Assembly: GCF_018736065.1 (NCBI RefSeq)
Contig: NZ_CP076129.1
Span: 248,001-312,000 of the forward strand
Reading direction: 5' to 3'
Length of the DNA stretch: 64,000 bases
Source: Flammeovirga kamogawensis
GTDB lineage: Bacteria > Bacteroidota > Bacteroidia > Cytophagales > Flammeovirgaceae
Of this stretch, positions 34,053 to 48,171 are shown piece by piece. Within the stretch, counting starts at the first letter, position 1. Each line of letters starts with the position of its first letter. The position numbers were made by a program, and so were the translations under genes. Below the pieces are notes generated by a model. That model was given only the letters and a program-made list of their open reading frames with translations. It searched no databases and was not told the origin of the DNA.

Positions 34053-37000
34053 TTATTTTTTCTGAAACCTTATAGATTCCTCATTGTTTATTCTCATTAT
34101 GTAAACACCCGCTGGTAAACTCGAAACATCTACTCTACCAGTAGAAATTGTAGAATATTCAAACTGCCCCAGAACATTATATATCGCAACTGATGTAGAT
34201 GAATTTACACCTTTAATATAAATTGTATGTTCTGCAGGAACAGGATACAATACATATTTACGTTCCCATTCATTTTCAATTGCTAAAGGATCGTTTGTTT
34301 CGGTAACAGTGAAAGTTATGCTAGCAGAAGCAGGGTTATACTCATCATTACCTGCTTGTGTAACTGTAATTGTCACTTCACCTGCCTCACCTGATAAAGT
34401 AATTGTTTCATTATTTAACGTTGCAGGACCTTCTACTTCATAAGTTAAAGTTAAACCAGAAGTTGTTGTAGCAGAAACGTTAATTACTTGCACACCAACT
34501 TGATCACCTATAGATGAAATAGTAATTACTTGATCCATCTTTGTTGGGTCATCTACTGTTATTACATTAAAAGTAACCGTTTTTGACGCTGCTTCATACA
34601 TGGCATTTCCTGCTTGAGTAACCGTAACTTTTACTTCTCCTGTTTCACCAGTTAATGTAATTTTGTTTCCTTCAATCGTTGCTGGGCCTTCAATTGCATA
34701 AATTAAGGCAAGGCCAGAAGTTGTTGAGGCGTCAATAGTAAATGCTTCATCAGAAACTACCTTATCTTCTATAGTCGTAATTGATATTGTCTGTTCTAAC
34801 TTAGCAGAACTTACAGAAGTCTTAGCATATAAATGTATTCCTCCAACTTGAAAATTCCATCCAGAATTGTTTTCTTCATTTGTGTCAACTATTTCAATTT
34901 TGACAAATTTAGTATCAGTTGGAATAGCATTTTCTGGAATAATAGCAAATTCATGAGAGTGTCTCCATTCATCTATTTCACCACTTTCATACACAATATC
35001 ATTAGTATATAAAGATGCTTGTTTTGTTTCTATTTTAGTATAAGTATTATTATCTGCTGACACATATACATTTATTCCATGATCTACAAGTTCTATATCT
35101 AAGGCTGTATTAGCTATCTTTGAATGGTTTTCCCAAACATTAATTTTAAAATGTTCTAGGTCTTCTATTTCATAAATAATACTTCCTGCTTGGTTATCAT
35201 TTCTAAACATTCTATTCTTATCACCTCTGTAAGAAATACCATTATCATTCGTGAAATTCAAATTATTTGTTCTAGAATAAAATTTGTCTGTGGTAGTAAA
35301 TTCATCAGAAACTTCGGGTAAAAGTGGTCCGTTAGGTTTTAATTGACCTTCTTCTAATTCAAATATTGATTCATCAACTGAAATAGAAATATTATCAATT
35401 CCTAAGTAAGGGACTTCGTTATTATTTGTATAAAACCTTACTTTACCTAGGTTACCTTTATCAAAACCAACACCATTTCCTTCTAAAGAAATCTTAAGGT
35501 ATTTCATATCTTTTGGTAAAGAAGCACTAGAACTAAATGTTACTAAGTTATTTCCCCAAGTGTAGTTACCTATAAATTGTTTCGTTACTAAAGTATCCCA
35601 TACTACTTGATCTACTGAATATAGACAAACTATTTTCCCATTGTCTTCTAAATCTCTACCGTTTAAGGTATTCCAAAAATCGACAGAAAAACCATGTAAA
35701 TCATTTACCTCATAAGTAATATGTGCATACCCTTCTGCTTCTCTTTCAATTAAACTAGGATCGGTAGTTATAGAATTACCCCATTGTACCGTAGATGGGC
35801 CAAAATTATGACTATCAATAACGTTTGAGAAATCACTTAATTCATCTACACTTTCTAAGTTATTATATAAAATGTCGTTTAACTTTTTCTCCATAGCCTC
35901 TTTAACTTCAGCATAGGCAGGTTCGTCAATTACATTAAACCATTCATTTTTATCATAATTATGATCGTATAACTCATCATCTTGTTCGTAATTAGAGATA
36001 TATCTAAATCTTTTTGATTTTAGTGCGTAATTATGGAAATCTTTATATCTGAAATACCAATTACCTACACTCGTTAAAGCTACTTCATCTCCTTCCCAAG
36101 TACCATCTGATGGATTTGCTAAGAAAGGTTTCATACTATGACCATCTAAATCAGCACCTTTTTCATTTTTCTTATTATCTCCCGTCAAATAACAAAGGTC
36201 TTTTAAAGTGGGGTAAACATCTACTAGAGATACTGGCTGATGCGACTTTTGACCCGCTGTATTTTTATGAATTGGAGACTTAATAATTAAAGGAACTCTT
36301 GTAGCATGTTCCCACAAGTTATTTTTCCAAGCATAATCTTTTTCACCCATATTATAACCATGGTCAGAAAAAAGTACAATTACTGTATTATCTGCATATT
36401 GACTGTTCTCGACTGCATTTACAACTCTACCTACCATTTCATCTGCAAAAGCAATACTCGCTAAATATCCCTGTAAATAACGTCTTATCCCTTCTTGTCT
36501 ATCTGTATATTGATTTTCTAAGGCATTAAAAATAGATTGTCCTCTACCATCTTTATTTGAAGTATCGTCAAGATCGTTCCATATTGATGCAGGTATTTCA
36601 ATATCCTCTAATGGAAATTGTTCAAAATATTTATCAGGAACTGTAAATGGTGAGTGCGGACGAATAAGACCAACTGACATCATAAATGGGTTTTTGCTGT
36701 CTTTTTCATCTAACTGTTTGATTTGTTGTTCTATCCATTCAACACTTTTCTCATCAGGCATTTTTGAACGTTCTTCATCAGAAGTATATTCAAATTTCTC
36801 TTTTAATGTAGTTGAATACCAACCGTTAAAACCAGGTTGTACATCAGACACATAAGGTACGTTAGGAATATTTGATAGAGGTCCAAATGTTCCATCTAAA
36901 CTTCCTCCTTCTTTTCCCATTTCTAGCGTATTATCTGGATGTTGAACACCAGATTTACCATTAAAAGCAACAGGTCCATAGTCATGTGTATTTTCTAAGT

Positions 37001-38819
37001 AATAATCGTAACCAAATTTATTTTCACCTGCGGCACTATGTGTAATTTTTCCTGTTTTATAAGTTGTATACCCATTTTCTTGAAAATATTGAGAAAGTAA
37101 TTTTGAGTTAATTAATGTCTCATTATTTTTAAAATTTGATGCTCCTGTTCCAAAATGGTTTGAGGTTGAAGGCAAAATACCACTTAAAAAACTAGCTCTT
37201 GATGGGTCACAAAGTGGGGCATTACTATGAGCATTCGTAAATAGAATACCAGAGTCTGCAAGTTTATCTATATTTGGTGTTTTTGTTTGCATATTCCCCC
37301 CCATAATACCGATGTAATCGTTCAAATCGTCTAAGACAATCATTACTACATTTAATTCTGCATGTGTAATTGCTAAATAAAAACGTTGAGTTATTTCACC
37401 TGAATTTGCTCCTGTTACTGTTACATCAACTTCATATACTCCATCAGTATTTTTATCATTTATATGATCTAAAGAAGGTTGGTTAATAAAAGAAAGATGA
37501 CCTTCTGAATTTACAGAAAAAAGCTCTTTATCGTCTCCACCAGTAATTGTATATGTTACTGCATCAATAGCAATAATATCTATTTTTAAGTATCCGCTAT
37601 TCTCAGCATAATTTTGGTGTGCTCCTGTTTTAATTGAGGGAGGTAAAATAACATTCTGCCCAAATTCAAATGTTCCTAAATCAGGAATTTCATCTGTTTT
37701 TCTATCAGTATTAAATGCGTCATAGTCAGTTGCTGTAATAGGATCACCTTTGTCTAATGCAATACTGATATCATAAATTGGCAAGTAAATTAAACCTGTT
37801 GTTTCATCCACTGTTAAAGCTCCAAAAGCAAGATCATCTAAGCTTGTAATTGCTACATTCGTATCATCAATTAGGTTTTCATCATCTGTAGCACTAATTA
37901 TGTTATGATGAGCAGTGACATTTAAAGCACTGTTTACTAAAATGTCTACCCCTCCATCATTATCACCATAACTTTTTGTTGGGTTATAGATTATATTATT
38001 AGTAATAGTTACAAATTGATCTACCGCTGCACTATTTTTAAGTTCAATACCTTCTACTTTTTTATTCCCTACAGCATAATTATCAACAATTGTATTGTTA
38101 TTTAGGTTTAAGTTTCCTACTGACATTACAAATGCACTACCATTCATAGATGCAGATTCGTTGCCAATAAAAAGGCTATTTTCAATGGTTACGTCATTCG
38201 AGTTTCCATTAGAATATATTGCTCCACCAAAATGAAATCCAACATTGTTTATAAATGCAGAACTTTTTATTGTTAGTGGACCTTTTGCCGTTAATGCACC
38301 TCCTTGCCCGTAAGAATAATTATCTATAAAATTACAGTATTCTATTTCAACCGTTGATGTTACGTTATTATTATAAATAGCTGAACCTCCTGCTAAATTA
38401 TACTTTTCTTGTTCATCATTATAAGTTCCTCTAATATTACCATGACGTAGTGTTAGAAGCTTAAATTTCACTACTAAATTTTTTTGTGTAATATTAAATA
38501 TTCTATTGTTAAGAATAGCCTCTTCCACGGTGTTAGAAGGTTTAATTTCTTGTGCTTGTACTATAGAAGTAGAAGCATTATCCCCAATAAAAGTCAAAGA
38601 TTTAGTAACAGAAATGTTATTTTCTGTCAGCGTTCCTTGTAAATGAATTATATCATTCTCTGCGGCTGTAGTAATTGCTTGTGTTATTGTAGCAAAAGGT
38701 TGATCAATTGTTCCCACATTGGCGTCATTCCCTTCATTGCTTACATAAAAAGTAGATTGCCCAATAGCTAGAGAACTAGTTAATAAAGCAATACATAAAA
38801 TAATAGTAATTCGTTTCAT
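34053..38819 (-). CDS. Giant modular T9SS-exported sulfatase (beta-helix, cadherin-like, S1_7-like sulfatase, jelly-rolls, Ig-like repeats)
   Basis: The 1588-residue protein begins with signal peptide MKRITIILCIALLTSSLAIG. Residues 22-390 form an Asn-rich parallel beta-helix (STFYVSNEGNDANVGT, IYNNNVTSTVEIEYC, ENSLFIGNES). Residues about 395-487 are cadherin-like (YTITGGDDKELFSVNSEGHL). The sulfatase domain runs about 489-1000, with Asp metal ligands in IVLDDLNDYIG and the active-site motif CDPSRASFLSG, Cys537. SVGLIRPHSPFTVP and FSDHGYNMGEKDYAWK follow. Two related jelly-roll modules (about 1030-1345), two Ig-like repeats with TVTQAGN, and a type A sorting domain (YPVPAEHTIYI, LPAGVYIMRINN) finish it. 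A normal S1_7 enzyme is about 500 residues. The extra domains suggest a cell-surface enzyme with its own glycan-binding parts. Confidence 0.93.
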   Translation of the reverse strand: MKRITIILCIALLTSSLAIGQSTFYVSNEGNDANVGTIDQPFATITQAITTAAENDIIHLQGTLTENNISVTKSLTFIGDNASTSIVQAQEIKPSNTVEEAILNNRIFNITQKNLVVKFKLLTLRHGNIRGTYNDEQEKYNLAGGSAIYNNNVTSTVEIEYCNFIDNYSYGQGGALTAKGPLTIKSSAFINNVGFHFGGAIYSNGNSNDVTIENSLFIGNESASMNGSAFVMSVGNLNLNNNTIVDNYAVGNKKVEGIELKNSAAVDQFVTITNNIIYNPTKSYGDNDGGVDILVNSALNVTAHHNIISATDDENLIDDTNVAITSLDDLAFGALTVDETTGLIYLPIYDISIALDKGDPITATDYDAFNTDRKTDEIPDLGTFEFGQNVILPPSIKTGAHQNYAENSGYLKIDIIAIDAVTYTITGGDDKELFSVNSEGHLSFINQPSLDHINDKNTDGVYEVDVTVTGANSGEITQRFYLAITHAELNVVMIVLDDLNDYIGIMGGNMQTKTPNIDKLADSGILFTNAHSNAPLCDPSRASFLSGILPSTSNHFGTGASNFKNNETLINSKLLSQYFQENGYTTYKTGKITHSAAGENKFGYDYYLENTHDYGPVAFNGKSGVQHPDNTLEMGKEGGSLDGTFGPLSNIPNVPYVSDVQPGFNGWYSTTLKEKFEYTSDEERSKMPDEKSVEWIEQQIKQLDEKDSKNPFMMSVGLIRPHSPFTVPDKYFEQFPLEDIEIPASIWNDLDDTSNKDGRGQSIFNALENQYTDRQEGIRRYLQGYLASIAFADEMVGRVVNAVENSQYADNTVIVLFSDHGYNMGEKDYAWKNNLWEHATRVPLIIKSPIHKNTAGQKSHQPVSLVDVYPTLKDLCYLTGDNKKNEKGADLDGHSMKPFLANPSDGTWEGDEVALTSVGNWYFRYKDFHNYALKSKRFRYISNYEQDDELYDHNYDKNEWFNVIDEPAYAEVKEAMEKKLNDILYNNLESVDELSDFSNVIDSHNFGPSTVQWGNSITTDPSLIEREAEGYAHITYEVNDLHGFSVDFWNTLNGRDLEDNGKIVCLYSVDQVVWDTLVTKQFIGNYTWGNNLVTFSSSASLPKDMKYLKISLEGNGVGFDKGNLGKVRFYTNNNEVPYLGIDNISISVDESIFELEEGQLKPNGPLLPEVSDEFTTTDKFYSRTNNLNFTNDNGISYRGDKNRMFRNDNQAGSIIYEIEDLEHFKINVWENHSKIANTALDIELVDHGINVYVSADNNTYTKIETKQASLYTNDIVYESGEIDEWRHSHEFAIIPENAIPTDTKFVKIEIVDTNEENNSGWNFQVGGIHLYAKTSVSSAKLEQTISITTIEDKVVSDEAFTIDASTTSGLALIYAIEGPATIEGNKITLTGETGEVKVTVTQAGNAMYEAASKTVTFNVITVDDPTKMDQVITISSIGDQVGVQVINVSATTTSGLTLTYEVEGPATLNNETITLSGEAGEVTITVTQAGNDEYNPASASITFTVTETNDPLAIENEWERKYVLYPVPAEHTIYIKGVNSSTSVAIYNVLGQFEYSTISTGRVDVSSLPAGVYIMRINNEESIRFQKK

Positions 38820-38983
38820 AAATCTGTTTTGTTAATACATTACCTAAATACAAAGAGCTTAAGTATTTAGTAGTAGTCTAAAAAAATTAAGTAGCGCGCT
38901 GTTTAATGTATAATGTTAAAAGTGTTAGTCTGTAATAAATAATGTAGAGCAGCATTTCTTCATCACAAACTAACTTAGAACAT

Positions 38984-40459
38984 CTATTTTAAATGTTTAT
39001 TTTTATTCTTCTTTTTTTTCTCTTGCATCTTGATCCAATAATCAGAATGAATTAACCCCATAAAAACAGGATCAATTAGTTCTGAATCCCAAGAGATTCT
39101 TAGTTCTTCAATTTGTTGCACCTTATCTGAATGCTCATTTTTAATATTTTTAGTTTCACTAATATCTGTTGATAGATTATAGAGCTCATAAACATTTTTA
39201 TTATCCGCTAAATTTCTAATCAATTTATAATCGTGATAGCGAACAGCATATTTTTGTTGATCAAACTTTCTAAGGTAAATAACTTCATGAGGATAACCAT
39301 TGTCTTTTCCTGTCACAAAAGGAATAAGATTAACACCATCTAAAGGTTTATCTTTTTCAATTGGTGCACTTGATAAAGCCACTGCAGTTGCAAAAATATC
39401 AAGAGAACTAATGGCTTTATCAAATGTCTGATTTGCCTTTATAGTTCCTGGCCAACACATTGCAAAAGGTACTCTAAAACCACCTTCGTATACAGATCCT
39501 TTACCTGCTTTTAATACACCATTATTAGAAGCATTTTTTGGCTCAGGCCCTCCATTATCAGATAAAAAATAGATAATTGTATTTTCCGCTATACCTTGTC
39601 TTTTTAATTCTTCTAGAACCTGACCTATTCCATCATCAACAGCACTAACCATTGCTGCATACGTTTTACGCTTTTTATCTTTTATGTTTTCAAAACGTTT
39701 TAAGTATTTTTCTGATGCTTGTAAAGGTGAGTGTGGAGCATTATAAGATAAATACAAAAAGAAAGGATCATCTGATTTTCCATTTCTTCTTATAAAATCT
39801 GAAGCATGATCAGAGAATGCATCAGTAAGATATTTGTTAGTTTTAACAGGTGTATGATTTTTCATAATCCATGTTTTGTAACTATCCGGTTCTTCTAAAT
39901 CAGCACCATAACTATTTTTAATAGTTAATAACTCAGGAAAATAAGCATGTCCTCCACCAAGGTGACCGTAAAATTCATCAAAACCTCTATTTAATGGATG
40001 ATTACTTTTGTGTGCCCCTAAATGCCACTTACCAATTATGCCTGAATGATAGCCAACTTCCTTAAGCGTAGTCGCAATAGTTCTTTCCGTTTTTGGTAAT
40101 CCCATATTTGGGTCCTCTGTTTTATATTGAGGGTTTCTTTCAAAACCAAAACGTTGCTGATATCTTCCTGTAATAAAACCGGCTCTTGATGGACCACATA
40201 CTGAATACGATACATAAGCATTAGTAAATTTCACTCCATTGTTAGCAATCTTATCAATATTTGGAGTGGGAATATCTAAACACCCATTAAAACCTACATC
40301 TTGATAGCCAAGATCATCACACATTATTACAATAATATTAGGCTTTTTTCTTTTATTACTAGGCGTAGTATTATCTAATGTTGAGAAACCAAAAAGGAAA
40401 CTTAACGTGATTACTACGATTGGTAGAGTATATTTTTTATTTGATAATTGAAGCATCAT
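38984..40459 (-). CDS. Secreted sulfatase, S1_19-like
   Basis: The 491-residue protein has a hydrophobic N-terminal signal (LPIVVITLSFLFGFS). Metal ligands are Asp48/Asp49 (IVIMCDDLGYQDVG). The active site CGPSRAGFITGRYQQRFGFE has Cys88. GKWHLGAHKSNHPLNRGFDE and SDNGGPEPKNASNNG with GSVYEGGFRVPF complete the core. The CGPSRAGFITGRYQxRFG pattern is that of S1_19, a subfamily that includes characterised 4-O-sulfate galactan (carrageenan) sulfatases. That makes a sulfated galactan one possible substrate, as inference only. It is the last of four sulfatase genes in a row on this strand and is followed, in the same direction, by the biosynthetic operon at 40578-44354 located upstream of it. Confidence 0.93.
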   Translation of the reverse strand: MMLQLSNKKYTLPIVVITLSFLFGFSTLDNTTPSNKRKKPNIIVIMCDDLGYQDVGFNGCLDIPTPNIDKIANNGVKFTNAYVSYSVCGPSRAGFITGRYQQRFGFERNPQYKTEDPNMGLPKTERTIATTLKEVGYHSGIIGKWHLGAHKSNHPLNRGFDEFYGHLGGGHAYFPELLTIKNSYGADLEEPDSYKTWIMKNHTPVKTNKYLTDAFSDHASDFIRRNGKSDDPFFLYLSYNAPHSPLQASEKYLKRFENIKDKKRKTYAAMVSAVDDGIGQVLEELKRQGIAENTIIYFLSDNGGPEPKNASNNGVLKAGKGSVYEGGFRVPFAMCWPGTIKANQTFDKAISSLDIFATAVALSSAPIEKDKPLDGVNLIPFVTGKDNGYPHEVIYLRKFDQQKYAVRYHDYKLIRNLADNKNVYELYNLSTDISETKNIKNEHSDKVQQIEELRISWDSELIDPVFMGLIHSDYWIKMQEKKKKNKNKHLK

Positions 40460-40577
40460 AATTCATTAATTCAAAAAATCATTTCTTGAATTTGCACATT
40501 TTATAAATGTACATTGTAACATTTAAGTAGAGGTGTAAAAAAAATGCTAAAATATATAAATAAGTGCTATTAATATA

Positions 40578-41711
40578 TTAAAAAACCTCGCCATGAGTGC
40601 TCTTAATTAATGTTTTGGTTAACGTAGAAGAATTATTTAAAAGCTTAATTAATAGATTTGTTGTTAGAGAATTCCCAAAAAAACGCTGAATAATTCGTCC
40701 TGTAAATAATCTTTTGCCAAAAGTTGATTGCCAAGTCTTGTGATAAATATCTGTCATCTGCTCCCAAGAAATTTCTTCTTTTAAATAACTATCCATTAGA
40801 GGTGTTAAGAAAACAGATGCTTGCATTGCCATAGTCATTCCATTACCACATAGTGGTGCAATTAATCCAGCAGCATCACCTAGCATAGGAATAGTATTTT
40901 CTGAAATAGATTTATGTGAAAAATCTACTTTAGCAATACTTAAAGGTTTATCCCAAACTCTTTCATATTTAAGGTATTTATTGAGAAAGGGGTTTCTCGA
41001 AAGGTATTTTTGTTCCATTTCTTCTAAAGAATGAGCGTCTTTTAAATAGCTTCCCTTTGCTAGAAAGCACATACAAATCAAATCATTCTCTATTTTTGAA
41101 ATTCCGCAATAACCACCAGAAAAATTATGAAGTTCGATTATATCAGAAGGTAAGTCTCCTTTTAAATGATATTTTACTCCAACAAAGTTTTTTAAACGAG
41201 TGTTCTTTAAATTTTCTTCTAAATATTTTCTTCTAAAAAATTTATCAAGATTAGATCTTTTACCAAATGCTCCGATAACAGATTTAGACTTAAAAATATT
41301 CTCTTTAGTTTCTATTTCCCACCTTTTGGCTATCTGCTGAACCCCTAAAACTTTTGTATTAGTAATTACCTGAACACCTTTTTCAATTGCTTTTTGATAC
41401 AATAAATCATCGAGTAAAAACCTACTTATGCCTCTCCCTCCAGAGGTAAGAGTAGAAGTTAAAAATTCTCCGTTAACAGCACTAACTTTGAGTTTATCAA
41501 TTATTGGTAATTGTAGTGCGTTTGCATCAATACCAATTCTGTTAAGGAAACCCCAAGCTTCTTTTGCTACATATTCTCCGCAGACTCTATGCATAGGATA
41601 ATTCTTTTGCTCAATTAACAGTACTTGCCAACCTAAATCAGCCATTTGAATACTTAATGTTAATCCACCAAGACCACCTCCAATTATTACTACATCAAAA
41701 ATATTAATCAT
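40578..41711 (-). CDS. FAD-dependent oxidoreductase/monooxygenase of the type III PKS operon
   Basis: The 377-residue protein has a Rossmann FAD site DVVIIGGGLGGLT (Gly11-Gly16), a LLIEQKNYPMHRVCGEYV motif typical of geranylgeranyl-reductase-like and halogenase-like flavoproteins, and the second FAD motif PMLGDAAGLIAPLCGNGMTM near residue 280. It is soluble with no signal peptide. Its ATG overlaps the end of the methyltransferase gene by 8 bases, so translation is coupled. In the Streptomyces griseus srs locus a flavin hydroxylase oxidises a type III PKS phenolic lipid to a quinone. By analogy this enzyme may hydroxylate the polyketide ring, or it may reduce a prenyl chain. It is the last gene of the operon. 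Confidence 0.88.
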   Translation of the reverse strand: MINIFDVVIIGGGLGGLTLSIQMADLGWQVLLIEQKNYPMHRVCGEYVAKEAWGFLNRIGIDANALQLPIIDKLKVSAVNGEFLTSTLTSGGRGISRFLLDDLLYQKAIEKGVQVITNTKVLGVQQIAKRWEIETKENIFKSKSVIGAFGKRSNLDKFFRRKYLEENLKNTRLKNFVGVKYHLKGDLPSDIIELHNFSGGYCGISKIENDLICMCFLAKGSYLKDAHSLEEMEQKYLSRNPFLNKYLKYERVWDKPLSIAKVDFSHKSISENTIPMLGDAAGLIAPLCGNGMTMAMQASVFLTPLMDSYLKEEISWEQMTDIYHKTWQSTFGKRLFTGRIIQRFFGNSLTTNLLIKLLNNSSTLTKTLIKSTHGEVF

Positions 41712-42399
41712 TTTTTAAAATAATTAGCCAACGAAAAGCCCATTTCCATTCTATAGAATAATTTCTTACCAAAGCCGCTTCCAAATAGTATTCAATTTCA
41801 TTCAATGAAAAACCACGTGCTACAGATAAACAAGCATCGTTTTTTACTAAGTACGATCGTGAGAAAAAAGTAGTTAGGTATTTTATACTATAATAAGCCA
41901 AACTATGCCTGTGGAGATCATTAATTACACATCCGGTAGTTGCATTTCTTTTCATCCAACTAAATAAAAATATGAGGTCTTTATCTTTAAGGTGATGACA
42001 GAATAAATTTGTAATAATTATATCAAATTGATCGCCACCATTTATAATATCTCTATAATCTGAACGGATAAATTTGATTGGTAAACCTTCTACATTTTTG
42101 CGTGCATAATCAATGCATTCTGCTTTAAGGTCTACTCCTATTAATTCTAATTTATATTTTGATCCAAATCTTTTATAGATTTCCTTTAGAGTATCGCCTC
42201 CTCCAGAACCGATATCAAGAATTCGATAAACATGCTTGTCATCTTTTAGTAATTCTGATAACCCATCTAAAACAACCTTATACCCTCCTAATAATGAATT
42301 AATTGTATGTAATTCATCTAAATTTTTATGTAAATCTAATTCAGGTATGTCATCTCTATCCAATAATTCCAATTGGTTGCTTCTTTGTCCTAAATCCAT
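41704..42399 (-). CDS. Class I SAM-dependent methyltransferase of the type III PKS operon
   Basis: The 231-residue protein contains motif I ILDIGSGGGDTLKE (around residue 72), the acidic motif II region ELIGVDLKAECIDYA, and FDIIITNLFCHHLKD at the post-I/IV position. It resembles the UbiE/small-molecule methyltransferase fold. It lies 3 bases after the PKS stop and overlaps the oxidoreductase start by 8 bases. Operon position indicates O- or C-methylation of the polyketide ring, similar in role to the methyltransferase step in phenolic-lipid biosynthesis. The exact acceptor atom cannot be told. Confidence 0.88.
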   Translation of the reverse strand: MDLGQRSNQLELLDRDDIPELDLHKNLDELHTINSLLGGYKVVLDGLSELLKDDKHVYRILDIGSGGGDTLKEIYKRFGSKYKLELIGVDLKAECIDYARKNVEGLPIKFIRSDYRDIINGGDQFDIIITNLFCHHLKDKDLIFLFSWMKRNATTGCVINDLHRHSLAYYSIKYLTTFFSRSYLVKNDACLSVARGFSLNEIEYYLEAALVRNYSIEWKWAFRWLIILKND

Positions 42400-42402
42400 A
42401 AT

Positions 42403-43452
42403 TTATAATTGATTTAATGTCATTGCCTCCATTGTTAAACCAGGTCCAAAACCTGCAGAGAAAATTGGTCCTTTAGTTTGCTTGTCTAGTAAAGATTTTA
42501 ATACAAACAATACTGTTGCAGACGACATATTACCATTTTCTTTAAGCACATCGTATGATGTTTGGAGTTCACTTTTATCAACTCCGATGGCAGCGGCAAT
42601 GGTATTTAATATTTTCACACCACCCGGGTGAAAGGCCCAATTTAATTTTCCTCTATCTAATTTTCTCTCCTCAATTACATCATCAAGTAAACCTTTAATA
42701 TCATCTCTTATAATATCAGCAACATAATTACTTAACCTCATTTTAAAACCAAGAGATGTCACTTTCCAAGCCATTTCTGATTTTCCAGACAAGGCCAATC
42801 GAGAATCAAAACCAACAAGTTCAAATTTAGAATCTTTATTCTTTATTGATGATAAATGAACAACAGCTGCACCATCTGCAAATAAAGAATTGGCTAGAAT
42901 ATTATCATCATCTGTTTCATTCTGAAAATGAATAGAACATAATTCTACATCAACCATTAACACTTCTGCTGTATTATCTGATTTACATATTTGATCTGCA
43001 ATTCTTAAACCATGAAAAGCTGCATAGCAACCCATAAAATTGACCGCTGTTCTAACAATTTTATTAGATAAACCCAATGCCGAGATAATATCAATTTCTA
43101 AACCTGGCGCAGAGATTCCAGTACAAGAAACTGTAATAATGTGCGTAATTTTTTGTAATTGTTCTTTTGTAACACATTTATTTATTGCTTTAACAGCTAA
43201 TGGTAAGGCTTCTTTTTCAAAAAGATCCATTCTATCTTCTACATTTGGAACCGTTGTGTTAAGGAAATATTTATATAAATCTGGAATTACAGAATGTCTA
43301 TGTTCAATCCCACTGTTTTTATATATAATATTCAATAATTTACGTTGCCTGTGCATATCATCTGTTGTACTTGACTGCATGAAAGCCAATAAATCACTCT
43401 GAGAATGTTTATTATTTGGTGATGAGGTAGCTATATTTTGTATGTATGTCAT
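42403..43452 (-). CDS. Type III polyketide synthase (chalcone synthase-like)
   Basis: The 349-residue protein carries the full Cys-His-Asn catalytic triad: Cys142 in NFMGCYAAFHG, His275 in AFHPGGVKI and Asn308 in NGNMSSATV. Their spacing is 133 and 33 residues, close to plant chalcone synthase. The upstream SCTGISAPGLEIDI and downstream FGPGLTMEAM motifs also fit. Such enzymes condense an acyl starter with malonyl-CoA to tri- or tetraketides that cyclise to resorcinols, pyrones or phloroglucinols. The neighbours are a prenyltransferase (14 bases upstream), a methyltransferase (3 bases downstream) and a flavoprotein. A methylated, oxidised, possibly prenylated alkylresorcinol or quinone is the likely product type. 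Starter length is unknown. Confidence 0.93.
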   Translation of the reverse strand: MTYIQNIATSSPNNKHSQSDLLAFMQSSTTDDMHRQRKLLNIIYKNSGIEHRHSVIPDLYKYFLNTTVPNVEDRMDLFEKEALPLAVKAINKCVTKEQLQKITHIITVSCTGISAPGLEIDIISALGLSNKIVRTAVNFMGCYAAFHGLRIADQICKSDNTAEVLMVDVELCSIHFQNETDDDNILANSLFADGAAVVHLSSIKNKDSKFELVGFDSRLALSGKSEMAWKVTSLGFKMRLSNYVADIIRDDIKGLLDDVIEERKLDRGKLNWAFHPGGVKILNTIAAAIGVDKSELQTSYDVLKENGNMSSATVLFVLKSLLDKQTKGPIFSAGFGPGLTMEAMTLNQL

Positions 43453-43466
43453 TCTTAATTTTTCTC

Positions 43467-44354
43467 TTATAACTGAAATAAATCAGTATGGTTTAAAACC
43501 GCAAGAAGAATGTAACATCCGTTCATACATAAAGCAGAAGTGTTGTTCATTCTCATAAGGTTTTTAAAATTTGCTGCACTTTTATTTTTTAATGTTTTTG
43601 CCATCCATAAATTAAACCATATAATTAATGGGAAAAGAGCAACCACAAAAACATAAAAATGTACAAATGTTGTTTTTTCAAAATAATAATAAAGTAATAT
43701 CCCTGCTATAGTAAACATTACCGTCCCGAAGTAAAATGTTCCGTTTATACCCAAAAGCATACTCAAACTTTTGTCTCCACTTTCTGCATCTTGCTTATGC
43801 TGATAAATTTGAGATAAAGGGTATGCTCCTCCAATCATAAAACTTGATGCCACTGCAGCATAAGGAAGAAAATTGGAGAAAAAATTAAGATTTCCAGATT
43901 TTACACCTTCAAAAACCATCCAAAAAGTCCAGAATCCTTGAAAAATGAAAACTGTAAGAAAACCTAGTATTGGGAATTTTTTTAATCTGATTAATTTAGA
44001 ACTATAAGCTCTCGACATTAATATATATACAAATAATAACCCCGTAAATACAGTATTCACAAATAGTAATGCTAAACATAAACCTGTTATATCCATCCCT
44101 AATGTTACCCAATACAATTGTTTTGTACTCATTGGTGGTTTTTCTAGTCCCCCAATACTTTCAGTATCTTTATCCATATAACTATTATAACCATTACTGG
44201 CAGGGTAAATTAGAAGATGTAAAAGAAAAAACACCCAAATAGCTTTACTTGTATTCAACAAACTAGTTTGGCTTAATGCAAAAAAATAGATAGGCATTAA
44301 ATAGATTGAGAATGGAATACGAAGAAGTGTGATTGTATTTTTAAGGTTGTTCAT
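43467..44354 (-). CDS. UbiA-family prenyltransferase, first gene of the type III PKS operon
   Basis: This 295-residue membrane protein has about nine hydrophobic segments. Its first Asp-rich motif is NGYNSYMDKDTESIGG (Asn57, Asp61, Asp63), and a second, YQHKQDAESGDKSLSMLLG, lies in the middle. These bind the magnesium-prenyl-diphosphate in UbiA/MenA-type enzymes. The gene starts the operon and ends 14 bases before the PKS gene. UbiA enzymes attach isoprenoids to aromatic acceptors. In this context the natural acceptor would be the PKS product, suggesting a prenylated phenolic lipid. Menaquinone (MenA) and heme A/O synthesis usually have separate loci, which argues against a housekeeping role. 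Confidence 0.9.
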   Translation of the reverse strand: MNNLKNTITLLRIPFSIYLMPIYFFALSQTSLLNTSKAIWVFFLLHLLIYPASNGYNSYMDKDTESIGGLEKPPMSTKQLYWVTLGMDITGLCLALLFVNTVFTGLLFVYILMSRAYSSKLIRLKKFPILGFLTVFIFQGFWTFWMVFEGVKSGNLNFFSNFLPYAAVASSFMIGGAYPLSQIYQHKQDAESGDKSLSMLLGINGTFYFGTVMFTIAGILLYYYFEKTTFVHFYVFVVALFPLIIWFNLWMAKTLKNKSAANFKNLMRMNNTSALCMNGCYILLAVLNHTDLFQL

Positions 44355-44640
44355 AAATTAGATCAAAAAAACAGTTAGTATTTTCAGTTTATTGTTTAAA
44401 CAAATAATTCCTATTTAAATGTAATTTATTTAGTTGAATTAACTACTATTTGAATCCGTATTTTAATCGGTAAATTCTTTAAAAGGAACACTAATAAAAG
44501 TGATATAAAGAAAAATATAAGGTATTTATAACTTCTGGAATTATATGATTACTAATAAAGTCTATTTATAAAAACTATTAACGATTTCAATTAGAACAAT
44601 TCTGTATATTGCGACAAATTTTGCATATCTATCAAAAGTT

Positions 44641-46185
44641 ATGAAAGAAGAGGACAAACAAATAGTAAGTATAAGCGATGTAGAGAATTGTGTTTCTACT
44701 ATTAATACATTACTAGACGATATAAATCAGTTTTTTGAATTACCTGAACAAAATCGTATTGCTTTAATGAAAGCTGCTGGACGTTTAACACGACCAAGTA
44801 GAGAAGAATACGAAAGTCGTAGAAAGGATAAACGAAAAGCACAAAAACGTAAGGAGCAAGAAAGAAATAAGCATGCTCGTAAAGAAACGGGTATTCGAAG
44901 TGCTAGAGAAGCACAAGTTTTTGTCGCTCCAAAATTATTGGAATCTCTTGATATTCCTAAGGAGATGCCAAAATTGACAAAACCAAGGAACTGCTATGTT
45001 TGTAAAGCAGAATATACACAGTTACATCATTTTTATGATCAGATGTGCCCGGATTGTGGAGATTTTAACTATGCAAAACGTTTCCAAGGTGCAGATTTAA
45101 CAGGTCAAATAGCAGTAGTAACTGGTTCTAGATTAAAGATTGGATACCACATTACTTTAATTATGCTTAGAGCAGGTGCAACTGTTGTTGCTACTACCCG
45201 ATTCCCTGTAGATTCAGCAAATAGATTTGCCAAAGAAGAAGATTTTAAAGAATGGGGTCATCGTTTAAAAATTCATGGATTGGATTTAAGACATATTCCA
45301 TCTGTAGAGATTTTCTGTAATTATATAGAGCAAAAGTACGGTAGATTAGATATTCTAATCAATAATGCTGCACAAACCGTTCGTAGACCTTCTGGCTTTT
45401 ATGAACACATGATGGCTGGAGAGGAAATGCCTTTTGAAGCATTACCTACTGATACACAGACATTGCTTTCTGAACATCAGTATTGCTTAAATGAACTCTC
45501 TGATCTATCTCAAGGTAGTGAAAGTGCAAAAAATAGAAGATTACCTGTAAAATGGTCAACTTCTGAACCAGGTATTGGTATTAGAGCATCAGCAAAATTA
45601 TCACAGATTCCATATAGCTTTGATAATTCTATTGCTACTAAAGAAGTTTTTCCAGAAGGTAAATTAGATGCAGATTTACAACAAGTTGACTTACGTACAA
45701 CTAACTCTTGGAGGTTAAGAATTGGCGAAATTGAAACACCTGAAATGGTTGAAGTTCAATTGGTTAATTCTATTGCACCTTTTGTGTTATGTAACCGACT
45801 AGGTAAATTAATGCAGAAAGACAATACAGGTAAAAAGCATATTATTAACGTGTCTGCAATGGAGGGGAAATTCCATAGATTCCATAAAGAAGACCGTCAT
45901 CCGCATACCAATATGGCAAAAGCTGCACTAAATATGTTAACTCATACTTCTGCTAGTACGCTTGCTAAAGATGGTATTTATATGAATGCAGTTGATACTG
46001 GCTGGGTAACTGATGAAGATCCTGCTCAAATTTCTAAAAAGAAACAAGAGGAACACGACTTCCAACCACCATTAGATATTGTTGATGGAGCTGCTAGAGT
46101 TTTAGATCCACTCATTGATGGAATAAACTCAGGTAAACATTGGTCTGGGAAATTCTTAAAAGATTACTTCCCTATTGATTGGTAA
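44641..46185 (+). CDS. SDR-family oxidoreductase with N-terminal zinc ribbon
   Basis: The 514-residue protein starts with a helical and then highly charged segment (about 55-85, [20 protein letters not shown]). A four-Cys zinc site follows (Cys118, Cys121, Cys136, Cys139: NCYVCKAEY and MCPDCGDF). A short-chain dehydrogenase domain begins with [12 protein letters not shown] at about 158. A Rossmann NAD(P) fold with [12 protein letters not shown] follows. [14 protein letters not shown] and [19 protein letters not shown] supply the catalytic-type Ser and Tyr-Lys region; the latter shows N-M-A-K, lacking an obvious YxxxK Tyr. This long zinc-ribbon SDR family is conserved in bacteria and some eukaryotes but its substrate is unknown. 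It is monocistronic and well terminated. Confidence 0.85.
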
Positions 46186-46204
46186 GTGAATAACCACATA
46201 ATAC

Positions 46205-46242
46205 AAAAACGGCTATCTAAATAAATTAGATAGCCGTTTTTA
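46205..46242 (+). terminator. Terminator of SDR gene
   Basis: AAAACGGCTATCTA pairs perfectly with TAGATAGCCGTTTT over a 7-base loop, then a short T-rich tail, 20 bases after the stop. Confidence 0.92.
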
Positions 46243-46248
46243 TATGTA

Positions 46249-46305
46249 AACACCTTATTTATACTTTGAAAAAAGGGTAAAGAATCATAGTATAAATAAG
46301 GTGTT
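46249..46305. repeat. 17-bp perfect inverted repeat
   Basis: AACACCTTATTTATACT (46249-46265) is exactly complementary to AGTATAAATAAGGTGTT (46289-46305) with a 23-base loop. No T-run follows. It begins 7 bases after the SDR terminator. It is a stable hairpin of unknown function. Confidence 0.85.
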
Positions 46306-46390
46306 CCTATTAAATTTCAACAATGAGAAAAATTAAAATGATATTATCTTTTTAATTTTTGTTAATACAAATCTACACCGATTATATTAC

Positions 46391-46425
46391 ATATAAACTA
46401 CCCAAAAGGGTAGTTTATATAATTT
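46391..46425. repeat. 13-bp perfect hairpin with AAAA loop
   Basis: ATATAAACTACCC (46391-46403), loop AAAA, then GGGTAGTTTATAT (46408-46420), followed by AATTTTT. It could be a terminator, the end of a small RNA, or an operator. It lies about 125 bases ahead of the SpoIIAA-like gene. Confidence 0.8.
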
Positions 46426-46548
46426 TTGGGAACTTTTTAATGTTAACAATGTATAGAATTATTCTACTAATTACTTTACCAATTGTGTGAATTCGATTAC
46501 ATCTACAAATTCTTATTTTATATTGTGTAAAATTGAAATACCTACTCT

Positions 46549-46965
46549 ATGATTAACTTTGAAATAATTAGTGACGAAAAATATAATATTCTTTCTTGGA
46601 ACCCAGTTCATAAGATACTTAAAACTGAATGGAATACTCCTATTGATATGGACGAAGAACTTTACAGAAGTGTAGTTCTTGAACATTTAAATACAACAAA
46701 AAAATATGCTCCAACAAGAATGCTTGTTGACACTCAGAATGCATATTATAATGTTGTTCCAGAGACCCAAGATTGGATTAATCAGAAATTTGTTAAGATA
46801 GTAGAAGAAATTAAACTTGAAAAAATGGCTTGGATTGTATCCGAAGACTTTTTTGCTCAAGTATCTTTTGATCAAGTTATGGACGATGCTAGTGAAGCTT
46901 CCCCATTCCAAATGAAACATTTCACTAATAGTCAAGAAGCTTTAGAGTGGCTTCTTATTGAATGA
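46549..46965 (+). CDS. SpoIIAA-like (STAS-fold) protein, copy 1 of a tandem pair
   Basis: The 138-residue cytosolic protein shows an alternating beta-alpha layout: an opening strand NILSWNPVHKILKTEW, a PTRMLVDTQNAYYNV strand-turn at the centre, KMAWIVSEDFFAQVSFDQVM, and a closing SQEALEWLLIE helix. The last two elements recur in the next gene as KLAWIVSNDFLQKY and DAIEWLKL, so the two are divergent paralogues. The pattern fits the STAS-related SpoIIAA-like family, which is of unknown function; relatives bind lipids or act in signalling. It is followed after 17 bases by its copy. Confidence 0.65.
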   Translation: MINFEIISDEKYNILSWNPVHKILKTEWNTPIDMDEELYRSVVLEHLNTTKKYAPTRMLVDTQNAYYNVVPETQDWINQKFVKIVEEIKLEKMAWIVSEDFFAQVSFDQVMDDASEASPFQMKHFTNSQEALEWLLIE

Positions 46966-46982
46966 CCTAATAACCAGTAACC

Positions 46983-47393
46983 ATGTATTCTCAAAAATTA
47001 TCAGAAGGTAGTTGTTATTCTATTTTATGGGATAATCAACTAGAAATACTAAAAGTCAATTTTAAAATTGATAGTAAAATCCTAAAAAATGATTTTAAAA
47101 AGAATTTTGTTTCCCAAATCGAAACAATTCAATCAAAAAAACCTAAAAAAGTAATTATCGATAACAACCAACAACAACATAAAATAATACAAGATTTACA
47201 ATGGTGGATGAATGTTCAGTATGCCGAGGTTTTTCACAATTCTAGAACACAAAAATTGGCATGGATTGTATCTAATGATTTCTTACAAAAATATATTCTT
47301 TATAATATGATTACTCCTGAAGAGTTAGAAGGATTTCTTAAAACACAATATTTCTCTAAAGAGTTTGATGCAATTGAATGGCTAAAATTATAA
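46983..47393 (+). CDS. SpoIIAA-like (STAS-fold) protein, copy 2 of a tandem pair
   Basis: A 136-residue paralogue of the preceding protein. Shared elements are an N-terminal strand ending ILWDNQLEILKVNF, a central KPKKVIIDNNQQQ, KLAWIVSNDFLQKY, and a C-terminal KEFDAIEWLKL. Overall identity appears low, so the duplication is old or the copies have diverged in role. It lies 17 bases after copy 1 and 15 bases before the HD gene, making a three-gene operon likely. No catalytic residues are seen. Confidence 0.65.
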   Translation: MYSQKLSEGSCYSILWDNQLEILKVNFKIDSKILKNDFKKNFVSQIETIQSKKPKKVIIDNNQQQHKIIQDLQWWMNVQYAEVFHNSRTQKLAWIVSNDFLQKYILYNMITPEELEGFLKTQYFSKEFDAIEWLKL

Positions 47394-47408
47394 TTGTAAC
47401 TTTATTGT

Positions 47409-47960
47409 ATGATTTTTAAAGCAATACAATTTGCAGCTGATAAACATAGTGGGCAATTCAGAAAAGGCACAAATATTCCTTATATGTATCATTTGATGAA
47501 TGTAATGAAAGTGTTATGTGATTTTGACTGCCCTGAGCATATTGTCACTGCAGGTATCTTACATGATGTTCTTGAGGATACCACAACTACGGTAGAGGAA
47601 TTAGAAGAAAATTTTGGAAAGGAAGTTACCTCTATTGTAGTAAGCGATTCAGAAAGTAATAAATCTCTGCCATGGAAAACACGAAAGGAAATAACAATCC
47701 AAGAACTTAAAAGTGCTCCTTTACCTGCTTTATATGTTGCTTTTGCAGATAAGTACGATAATATTTGTGCAATAGATAGAGACTTTGCAGTTATTGGAGA
47801 AACATTTTGGAATAGATTTAATGCACAAAAAAAAGAGCAATTATGGTATTACTCTTCTTTATATGCAATTTTCTCTAATCGTTTGTCTTCAAGGAATAAT
47901 CAACTAGATCATTGTCTAAATAAAATGGGCTCTATTATAGAAAGACTTATGCTTTCGTGA
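47409..47960 (+). CDS. HD-domain phosphohydrolase (MESH1/RelA-HD-like)
   Basis: The 183-residue protein is a single HD domain. It has His28 (PYMYHLMNVM), the His52-Asp53 pair (GILHDVLEDTTTT) and a late Asp (FADKYDNI, around 114-117), the metal ligands of the superfamily. The sequence AxxxHxGQxRKGTxxPYxxH and LHDVxEDT closely follow the hydrolase part of RelA/SpoT and the small MESH1 proteins, which degrade (p)ppGpp or NADPH. No synthetase domain is present. Its context, after two STAS-like proteins, suggests a signalling role, as inference. Its end overlaps a convergent small ORF by 14 bases. Confidence 0.82.
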   Translation: MIFKAIQFAADKHSGQFRKGTNIPYMYHLMNVMKVLCDFDCPEHIVTAGILHDVLEDTTTTVEELEENFGKEVTSIVVSDSESNKSLPWKTRKEITIQELKSAPLPALYVAFADKYDNICAIDRDFAVIGETFWNRFNAQKKEQLWYYSSLYAIFSNRLSSRNNQLDHCLNKMGSIIERLMLS

Positions 47961-48171
47961 AAGTATATTCTTTATTATAAAGATCTGTTTCATATTTAAA
48001 ACCAAATATTTGTTGAGATTGTATTAACCACTTTCTCATATCCATTTCTATAATTTGAGAATCTTCTTGGCTCCCATGATGTATGAAATCACTCATCAAA
48101 AATTCTACAGAAAAAGTTGCTTTTCCTTGTTCCGCTATCTTATCTAAGATTAATTTTATTTTCCCGTTCAT
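47947..48171 (-). CDS. Small hypothetical protein convergent with the HD hydrolase
   Basis: A 74-residue frame on the minus strand whose 3' end overlaps the HD gene's 3' end by 14 bases. The product (MNGKIKLILDKIAEQGKATF, later HHGSQEDSQIIEMDMRKWLI) is hydrophilic, with helical segments and no signal peptide. I do not recognise a family. The composition is protein-like and the frame has its own upstream space, so it is plausible. It could still be chance. Confidence 0.4.
   Translation of the reverse strand: MNGKIKLILDKIAEQGKATFSVEFLMSDFIHHGSQEDSQIIEMDMRKWLIQSQQIFGFKYETDLYNKEYTFTKA

Follow-up and report, generated by a model that had tools for sequence, protein, structure and literature searches.

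In a 64,000-nucleotide stretch of the Flammeovirga kamogawensis genome (6.97 Mb in four contigs; the stretch, bases 248001-312000 of contig C2, is called the window below and all positions are counted in it), four adjacent genes on the minus strand, from position 44354 down to 40578, encode a UbiA-superfamily prenyltransferase, a type III polyketide synthase (PKS), a class I S-adenosylmethionine (SAM)-dependent methyltransferase (MT), and a flavin adenine dinucleotide (FAD)-dependent oxidoreductase, here called the FAD protein (table 1). The genes are spaced by 14, 3, and -8 bases, all four proteins score above their Pfam cut-offs, and Pfam revealed neither a transporter nor a regulator among the four open reading frames (ORFs). 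A preliminary description of this DNA, made from the sequence alone, had proposed an operon with these gene classes, these spacings, and no transporter or regulator, and it is confirmed on each point by the ORF coordinates and the Pfam matches.

Table 1. Features of the UbiA-PKS-MT-FAD operon in the window (A1, A2, and A6 denote alignments)
Feature	Position	Strand	Evidence
UbiA-superfamily integral membrane prenyltransferase, 295 aa (P0002)	43467..44354	-	ORF; PF01040, 70.2 bits
Type III polyketide synthase, 349 aa (P0001)	42403..43452	-	ORF; PF00195/PF02797
Class I SAM-dependent methyltransferase, 231 aa (P0003)	41704..42399	-	Methyltransf_25, 53.8 bits
FAD-dependent oxidoreductase, 377 aa (P0004)	40578..41711	-	FAD_binding_3, 42.7 bits
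UbiA first motif N57-S-x-x-D61-x-D63	44166..44186	-	N57, S58, D61, and D63 invariant in A1 (23 rows) and A6 (29 rows)
UbiA second motif Q182-x-Y184-Q185-H186-x-x-D189-x-x-x-G193	43776..43811	-	Q182, Y184, Q185, and D189 invariant in A1 and A6
PKS catalytic Cys142	43027..43029	-	invariant in A2 (24 rows) and in 164/164 PKS rows
PKS catalytic His275	42628..42630	-	invariant in A2 (24 rows) and in 164/164 PKS rows
PKS catalytic Asn308	42529..42531	-	invariant in A2 (24 rows) and in 164/164 PKS rows
PKS Trp229, probable counterpart of ArsB W281/MMAR_2474 W230	42766..42768	-	row counts (see text); putative equivalence
FAD protein CGEY motif (C44-Y47), family signature	41571..41582	-	100/100 family rows

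Properties of the Four Proteins

The PF01040 score of the UbiA protein is about twice its cut-off (34.2 bits), and the AlphaFold2 model (pLDDT, the predicted local distance difference test, 95.2) has nine long helices in the arrangement of the UbiA fold, both of which place P0002 in the UbiA superfamily. The best Foldseek matches of this model are digeranylgeranylglyceryl phosphate (DGGGP) synthases (7bpu and 6m31), followed by Archaeoglobus UbiA and UBIAD1. The predicted fold is thus shared with DGGGP synthase and other UbiA enzymes, but P0002 differs from them in having no phmmer hit at E<=10 in a set of 177635 PDB sequences, in falling below the curated NCBIfam cut-offs for DGGGP and chlorophyll synthases (PRK12882, 24.5 bits vs 296; BchG, 29.3 bits vs 212.3), and in having a second motif of its own. 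We take the first motif (N57-S-x-x-D61-x-D63) to be the first metal/diphosphate-binding motif. On the motif side of the model there are 11 Lys and Arg residues versus 1 on the other, and a bias in the same direction is found in 29 of 29 rows; the motif loops are therefore predicted to be probably cytosolic and the C-terminus periplasmic.

The preliminary description had raised the question of whether this protein is MenA or a heme O synthase, and the NCBIfam profile scores indicate that it is neither. P0002 has no match at 1e-3 to the MenA models TIGR00751 and PRK06080 or to the CtaB model TIGR01473, and the source genome has its own MenA (L003, 258.1 bits with TIGR00751), its own CtaB (L001, 241.3 bits), and a further UbiA paralog. 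In the UbiA tree the operon UbiAs stand apart from the three genome paralogs with support of 100/98. Because the branches to the paralogs have reached saturation (length 10) and two distant rows of family f43 lie inside the operon side on a long branch, so that the operon label needs two changes, the distinctness of the operon UbiAs rests on the profile scores.

P0001 matches Chal_sti_synt_N (85.8 bits) and Chal_sti_synt_C (73.1 bits; cut-off 27 for each) and has the Cys-His-Asn triad, as expected of a type III PKS. The complete Cys142-His275-Asn308 triad named in the preliminary description is identical in every row compared (table 1). Three further residues (T111, A115, and C172) align with Thr, Ala, and Cys of PKS18, presumably those (T144, A148, and C205) that line its long-chain tunnel. 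A2 has a single invariant Trp, Trp229. It is present in 121 of 121 UbiA-linked rows, in 22 of 22 rows from the order Cytophagales (the order of the source genome) without UbiA at the locus, and in 20 of 21 other rows; these figures include certain genomes twice, and one of the 21 (L217) comes from a UbiA-bearing genome. The PKS at locus L199 of genome G357 has Phe in this place. Since the rows without UbiA at the locus and nearly all other rows carry the Trp too, it is not special to UbiA-linked PKSs.

In published work, a Trp at position 281 of ArsB or 230 of MMAR_2474 goes with resorcinol formation (ArsB, FtpA, SrsA, PKS10, and PKS11; PMC9927152, PMC5916927). Trp229 is probably this resorcinol-directing residue, judging from its residue number and its being the sole invariant Trp, and with this marker P0001 is likely to be a resorcinol-type PKS.

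The MT scores well above the cut-off of Methyltransf_25 (27 bits); its best NCBIfam match, NF004851 (136.2 bits), is below the cut-off of 243. The FAD protein likewise exceeds the FAD_binding_3 cut-off (22 bits), and the structural neighbors of its model (pLDDT 88.8) in Foldseek are flavin halogenases, monooxygenases, and geranylgeranyl (GG) reductase. Among 100 family rows, which include some genomes twice, CGEY and GY[CA]G are present in 100 each and PLCGNGM in 93, and at the sequence level the FAD proteins of these operons are a family of their own. A flavin-dependent halogenase was considered because halogenases are among the best structural matches, and was rejected: the WxWxIP motif of these enzymes is found in 0 of 100 FAD rows. 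A second match to the FAD profile is present in several genomes of genus g20 (G012, G087, G128, G169, G233, G254, and G275), and the Hymenobacter plasmids H41 and H42 carry FAD homologs.

Gene Order and Co-inheritance

Named genomes were scanned with the UbiA alignment, which gave 575 loci; the best 80 of these were compared. At 60 of these 80 the UbiA-PKS-MT-FAD order is kept on the same strand, either as four separate genes (49 loci) or with a joint UbiA-PKS ORF ahead of the MT and FAD genes (11 loci). The hosts of the full set include Flammeovirga, Dyadobacter, Chitinophagaceae, Solitalea, a Mucilaginibacter metagenome-assembled genome (MAG), and several other MAGs. The other loci have UbiA alone (11), UbiA-PKS (5), UbiA-PKS-MT (2), a set without MT (1), or a rearranged set (1), and at six of the incomplete ones (L134, L138, L147, L150, L153, and L166) less than 2 kb of DNA remains after UbiA. 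A full operon is also carried by a MAG labeled Candidatus Sericytochromatia (L127).

UbiA and PKS are joined in one frame in 15 distinct sequences, comprising 11 named Dyadobacter loci and 4 of genus g58 (L101-L106, L108, L117, L121, L125, L131, L178, L179, L181, and L182), and in the search of the order the long UbiA-PKS frame was found in 10 of the 13 UbiA-bearing g58 genomes. All 15 junctions have TTG as their Leu codon (TTG accounts for 238 of 1146 Leu codons across these ORFs). In all four unfused Dyadobacter loci examined, the UbiA stop overlaps a TTG (TTGA). A plain fusion would place the PKS, which depends on coenzyme A (CoA), on the wrong side of the membrane, because the UbiA C-terminus is predicted to lie on the Lys/Arg-poor, probably periplasmic side. 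Given this topology and the TTG in both kinds of locus, the PKS may start at the junction TTG, separately from UbiA, and the one-frame Dyadobacter ORF is no clean proof of a fused protein.

We also retrieved 60 PKS loci of Cytophagales, mostly from the top of the match list and some of them ending at a contig edge. Of these 60 stretches, 38 contain UbiA, 36 MT, and 32 FAD; any further family turns up in 6 at most. Because the arrangement recurs in other genera and no other family accompanies it more often than this, a chance cluster is excluded, and the four genes are a functional unit.

Co-inheritance was examined in 291 genomes of the order with thresholds that are unequal between the searches (PKS, one protein at E<=0.001; UbiA, profile at E<=1e-40; FAD, profile at 1e-60; MT, profile at 1e-40). 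PKS was detected in 224 genomes, UbiA in 222, FAD in 212, and MT in 193. PKS and UbiA occur together in 218 genomes, PKS only in 6, UbiA only in 4, and neither in 63. FAD accompanies PKS in 210 genomes and MT does so in 191, with two genomes in each case having the FAD or MT match and no PKS. All four genes are present in 182 of the 291, counted at the level of the genome and not of a single locus. Fisher's test gave values from 1e-37 to 1e-51 for the gene pairs (1.4e-51 for PKS/UbiA), which are not probabilities since the genomes share ancestry. Half of the PKS-only genomes (G029, G059, and G265) have weak PKS matches (1e-36 to 1e-38), and among the UbiA-only genomes G124 and G134 are only 81 and 84% complete and G164 has a UbiA match of just 8e-47. 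Co-conservation of the four genes, which the preliminary description had singled out as a check on a common product, is therefore borne out by both the genome counts and the recurring gene order; UbiA and PKS are the core, and MT and FAD are more variable.

Beyond the order, UbiA passes 1e-40 in 44 genomes and the PKS profile in 178 of a sample of 395 genomes from the phylum. Within the class, all nine UbiA-bearing genomes outside the order (G323, G353, G408, G412, G435, G443, G533, G579, and G667) carry a strong PKS (E of 4e-140 or better), as do three genomes of family f32 (G291, G301, and G306; 2e-134 or better); the remaining class members with a PKS reach only about 1e-55 to 1e-69 and are without this UbiA. 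Family f43 has a weak UbiA match (140–159 bits), and no PKS lies near UbiA in the two loci examined (L223 and L224). We further inspected 20 PKS contexts without a strong UbiA (L191-L210; for L191 and L192 the genome does have a weak UbiA match): 5 have PKS-MT-FAD (L197, L198, L199, L207, and L208), 6 have PKS-MT, and 9 have neither partner. Since such triads occur in contexts without a strong UbiA, the PKS-MT-FAD triad is the wider module and UbiA looks like a clade-specific addition to it. One of these triads, FAD-MT-PKS at L199 (G357, family f26), has a PKS on a very long tree branch and may make another product.

A midpoint-rooted PKS tree was built from 72 rows (the window PKS, a random 40 order and named rows, 11 further PKS rows, and 20 rows labeled as without UbiA). 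The 52 rows from UbiA-bearing genomes form one side of a branch with support of 100/99, by which a single gain is not proven. The prenyltransferase is a near-constant partner of this PKS clade. A plasmid-borne gene set was considered and rejected, as P0002 is unmatched in 72,556 plasmid records, among which those very close to the source genome may be absent.

As for the surroundings in the window, a sulfatase gene (38984-40459) lies on the same strand 118 bases downstream of the FAD gene, and a divergent gene for a short-chain dehydrogenase/reductase (SDR) protein (44641-46185) lies upstream of UbiA. Scans for sigma-70-type promoters (27 vs a shuffle mean of 25.4) and terminators (0 vs 1.3) gave nothing above shuffled sequence, a Bacteroidota-type promoter pattern was not found in the approximately 290 bases upstream of UbiA, and Rfam had no match within 38500-48000. 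The sulfatase gene adjoins a second one on the minus strand (34053-38819), whose product of 1588 aa has a long N-terminal part and, by Pfam, a C-terminal sorting domain of type IX secretion. In the SDR protein (plus strand, 514 aa) the match to the SDR domain falls into two stretches, and the long extension at the N-terminus appears rich in Lys and Arg by eye. Farther on, two adjoining plus-strand genes (46549-46965 and 46983-47393) encode small proteins of 138 and 136 aa that are similar by eye and have no Pfam family at 1e-3; a gene for an HD_4 protein (47409-47960) follows directly.

Related Gene Sets in Other Bacteria

The preliminary description had drawn a parallel with the phenolic-lipid genes of Streptomyces griseus (srsABC), and triads of PKS, MT, and oxidoreductase genes are in print for mycobacteria and Streptomyces (PMC9927152, PMC5916927), cyanobacteria (PMC8086630), and planctomycetes (PMC10896814). 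In S. griseus, a PKS and an MT, as in the Flammeovirga operon, together with a hydroxylase yield phenolic lipids with a benzoquinone or pyrone scaffold, but the available description has no prenylation step (PMC9927152). The pkqABC operon of Mycobacterium smegmatis and Streptomyces sp. MNU77 leads to methoxy-methyl-alkyl hydroquinones and quinones; it is of the same operon type, likened here by its description, and has the Trp resorcinol marker, but no prenyltransferase is mentioned in the text available (PMC9927152). The hierridin genes hidABC of cyanobacteria and the planctomycete operon are likewise three-gene sets of PKS, MT, and oxidoreductase, but their usual order is MT-oxidoreductase-PKS (PMC8086630, PMC10896814). 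Expressed in a heterologous host, the planctomycete PKSs yielded pentadecyl- and heptadecylresorcinols (PMC10896814), and a prenyltransferase is told of in one Raphidiopsis hierridin-like cluster only (PMC8086630).

A triad of PKS, FAD, and MT genes with no UbiA in the stretch is present on plasmid 5 of Psychrobacter urativorans (L230, 49 kb), where the PKS is 38.7% identical to P0001. The operon MT and FAD proteins are related to those of this uncharacterized plasmid triad, at 28% (5e-31) and 23% (5e-15) identity.

A similar gene set in print is the stilbene synthase cluster of the actinobacterium Gephyromycinifex aptenodytis NJES-13, in which UbiA, a type III PKS, an MT, and an FAD-dependent oxygenase adjoin (PMC8779670). 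It differs in its phylum and in an MT of the isoprenylcysteine carboxyl type, and its authors proposed that it feeds angucycline synthesis. The preliminary description knew of no compound from this gene set. For Bacteroidota this stands, in that no product of a UbiA/type III PKS/MT/FAD set is described among the matches listed from open-licence PMC papers, and Bacteroidota reports, in the parts available, list type III PKS clusters with no product named; but the gene set itself is not wholly unseen (PMC8779670, PMC8086630). In gene content, with PKS, MT, and FAD oxidoreductase genes together, the operon is of the polyketide-quinone and hierridin type, with UbiA as an added step.

Proposed Pathway and Alternative Explanations

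With moderate confidence we propose that the four genes form one pathway to a membrane-resident prenylated phenolic lipid, that is, a prenylated, methylated, and oxidized alkylresorcinol, possibly a quinone, whose chemistry and function are predicted as follows. The PKS would condense an acyl-CoA starter with three malonyl units and close the ring by aldol condensation to a 5-alkylresorcinol; UbiA, in the membrane with its motif loops toward the cytosol, would attach a polyprenyl chain to a ring carbon; the FAD enzyme would oxidize the ring, most likely by hydroxylation, to a hydroquinone convertible to a quinone; and the MT would cap the product, most likely on an oxygen. The resulting prenylated methoxy-alkyl-hydroquinone or quinone would remain in the membrane and serve there as redox lipid or antioxidant. 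A shared pathway, as the preliminary description supposed, is supported by co-inheritance, the recurring order, the ORFs that join UbiA and PKS in one frame, and the separation of this UbiA protein from MenA and CtaB. Its product class, a prenylated alkylresorcinol or alkylquinone, seems plausible with a PKS that Trp229 makes likely to be of the resorcinol type.

Several observations weigh against this proposal. The canonical second motif of UbiA enzymes is Asp-rich, and the UbiA of the operon has Gln where Asp is usual. Linkage is often broken, as the 22 Cytophagales PKS loci with no UbiA in the stretch illustrate, and the 11 UbiA-only loci among the best 80 show none of the other three genes, although one of them (L153) ends 411 bases on. 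Three PKS-only genomes (G151, G212, and G222, all from genus g35 of family f11) combine a good PKS match (about 1e-75) with no UbiA. At the thresholds used, 33 of the 224 PKS-bearing genomes are without MT and 14 without FAD, and 8 genomes with UbiA and PKS are without both, so that full decoration is not universal. In the literature, the authors of the expressed planctomycete triad left the role of the FAD oxidoreductase open (PMC10896814), and a Micromonospora region with UbiA near the loseolamycin gene losA gave compounds described as alkylresorcinols (PMC7587189). Reichenbachiella strains with type III PKS genes are reported with menaquinone-7 (MK-7) as the respiratory quinone, which, if they carry this UbiA, would disfavor an abundant second quinone.

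The FAD enzyme might be a prenyl-chain reductase instead of a ring hydroxylase: UbiA would add a geranylgeranyl-like chain, the FAD enzyme would saturate it, and the product would be a phenolic lipid with a saturated tail and not a quinone. Such a pathway would parallel archaeal lipid synthesis, with its DGGGP synthase and GG reductase, or chlorophyll synthesis, and it is consistent with the structural closeness of UbiA to DGGGP synthases. The best NCBIfam match of P0004 is the GG reductase superfamily TIGR02032, but its score of 93.8 bits is under the cut-off of 158.8. In Foldseek, Thermoplasma GG reductase (3oz2) ranks third, and the CGEY of all rows resembles the Cys motif of GG reductases, whereas the YxWxFP motif of these enzymes is found in 0 of 100 FAD rows. 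Moreover, relatives of P0004 stand beside PKSs that have no UbiA in the stretch and whose products should not carry a prenyl chain (L199 of G357, 464 bits; a Novosphingobium plasmid, hhalign probability 100). The occurrence of such FAD proteins next to type III PKSs on plasmids of Psychrobacter and Novosphingobium, in stretches that lack UbiA, favors a ring reaction over prenyl reduction, which we consider unlikely.

It is also rather unlikely that UbiA is inactive on the polyketide and serves a neighboring membrane function, the triad alone making an unprenylated, methylated alkylresorcinol or alkylquinone. This would agree with the unusual second motif, with the triads that work without UbiA in other phyla (PMC9927152, PMC10896814, PMC8086630), and with the Micromonospora alkylresorcinols (PMC7587189). 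Yet UbiA tracks the PKS closely, with 10 discordant genomes against the 218 that have both, all nine UbiA-bearing class members outside the order have a strong PKS, and UbiA and PKS share one frame in the 15 sequences described above.

To a similarly low degree we credit the possibility that the PKS supplies UbiA with another ring to prenylate (an alpha-pyrone, an acylphloroglucinol, or a product built from malonyl units only). The solved sequences closest to P0001 are 7cb3 (2e-38) and, close in score, PKS18 (1ted; 4.4e-38), an alkylpyrone synthase (PMC5916927), and the nearest NCBIfam is DpgA, at 131 bits far under its cut-off of 425. MMAR_2474, which carries the marker Trp, makes both acylphloroglucinols and resorcinols (PMC5916927). 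Against this, Trp229 is invariant in UbiA-linked PKSs, and the residue aligned to it is Leu in both PKS18 and 7cb3.

The respiratory quinone of Cytophagales and Chitinophagaceae is reported as menaquinone. There is a small chance that many of these bacteria have a second, ubiquinone-like lipoquinone, with a ring from a type III PKS and not from chorismate, a tail added by a dedicated UbiA, and MT and FAD enzymes that finish a prenylated methoxy-benzoquinone. Such an isoprenoid-tailed polyketide quinone would combine the designs of ubiquinone and of polyketide quinones, and the cells might employ it at certain oxygen levels. A secreted specialized metabolite (antibiotic or signal) in place of a membrane lipid is quite improbable: bioactivity is described for related phenolic lipids and hierridins (PMC10896814, PMC7587189), but the four genes include no exporter or regulator, no other family recurs at more than 6 of 60 loci, and so wide a presence in the order is unlike a typical antibiotic cluster.

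Three in four sampled genomes of the order have the UbiA-PKS pair, which is inherited as a unit; this points to a common but unseen membrane lipid. The product of the proposed pathway could be an unrecognized membrane electron carrier or antioxidant, and the close partnership of UbiA and PKS makes it directly testable. A quinone would be relevant to respiration in aerobic Bacteroidota, and an antioxidant or envelope lipid would give meaning to the productless type III PKS clusters reported by antiSMASH in such genomes.

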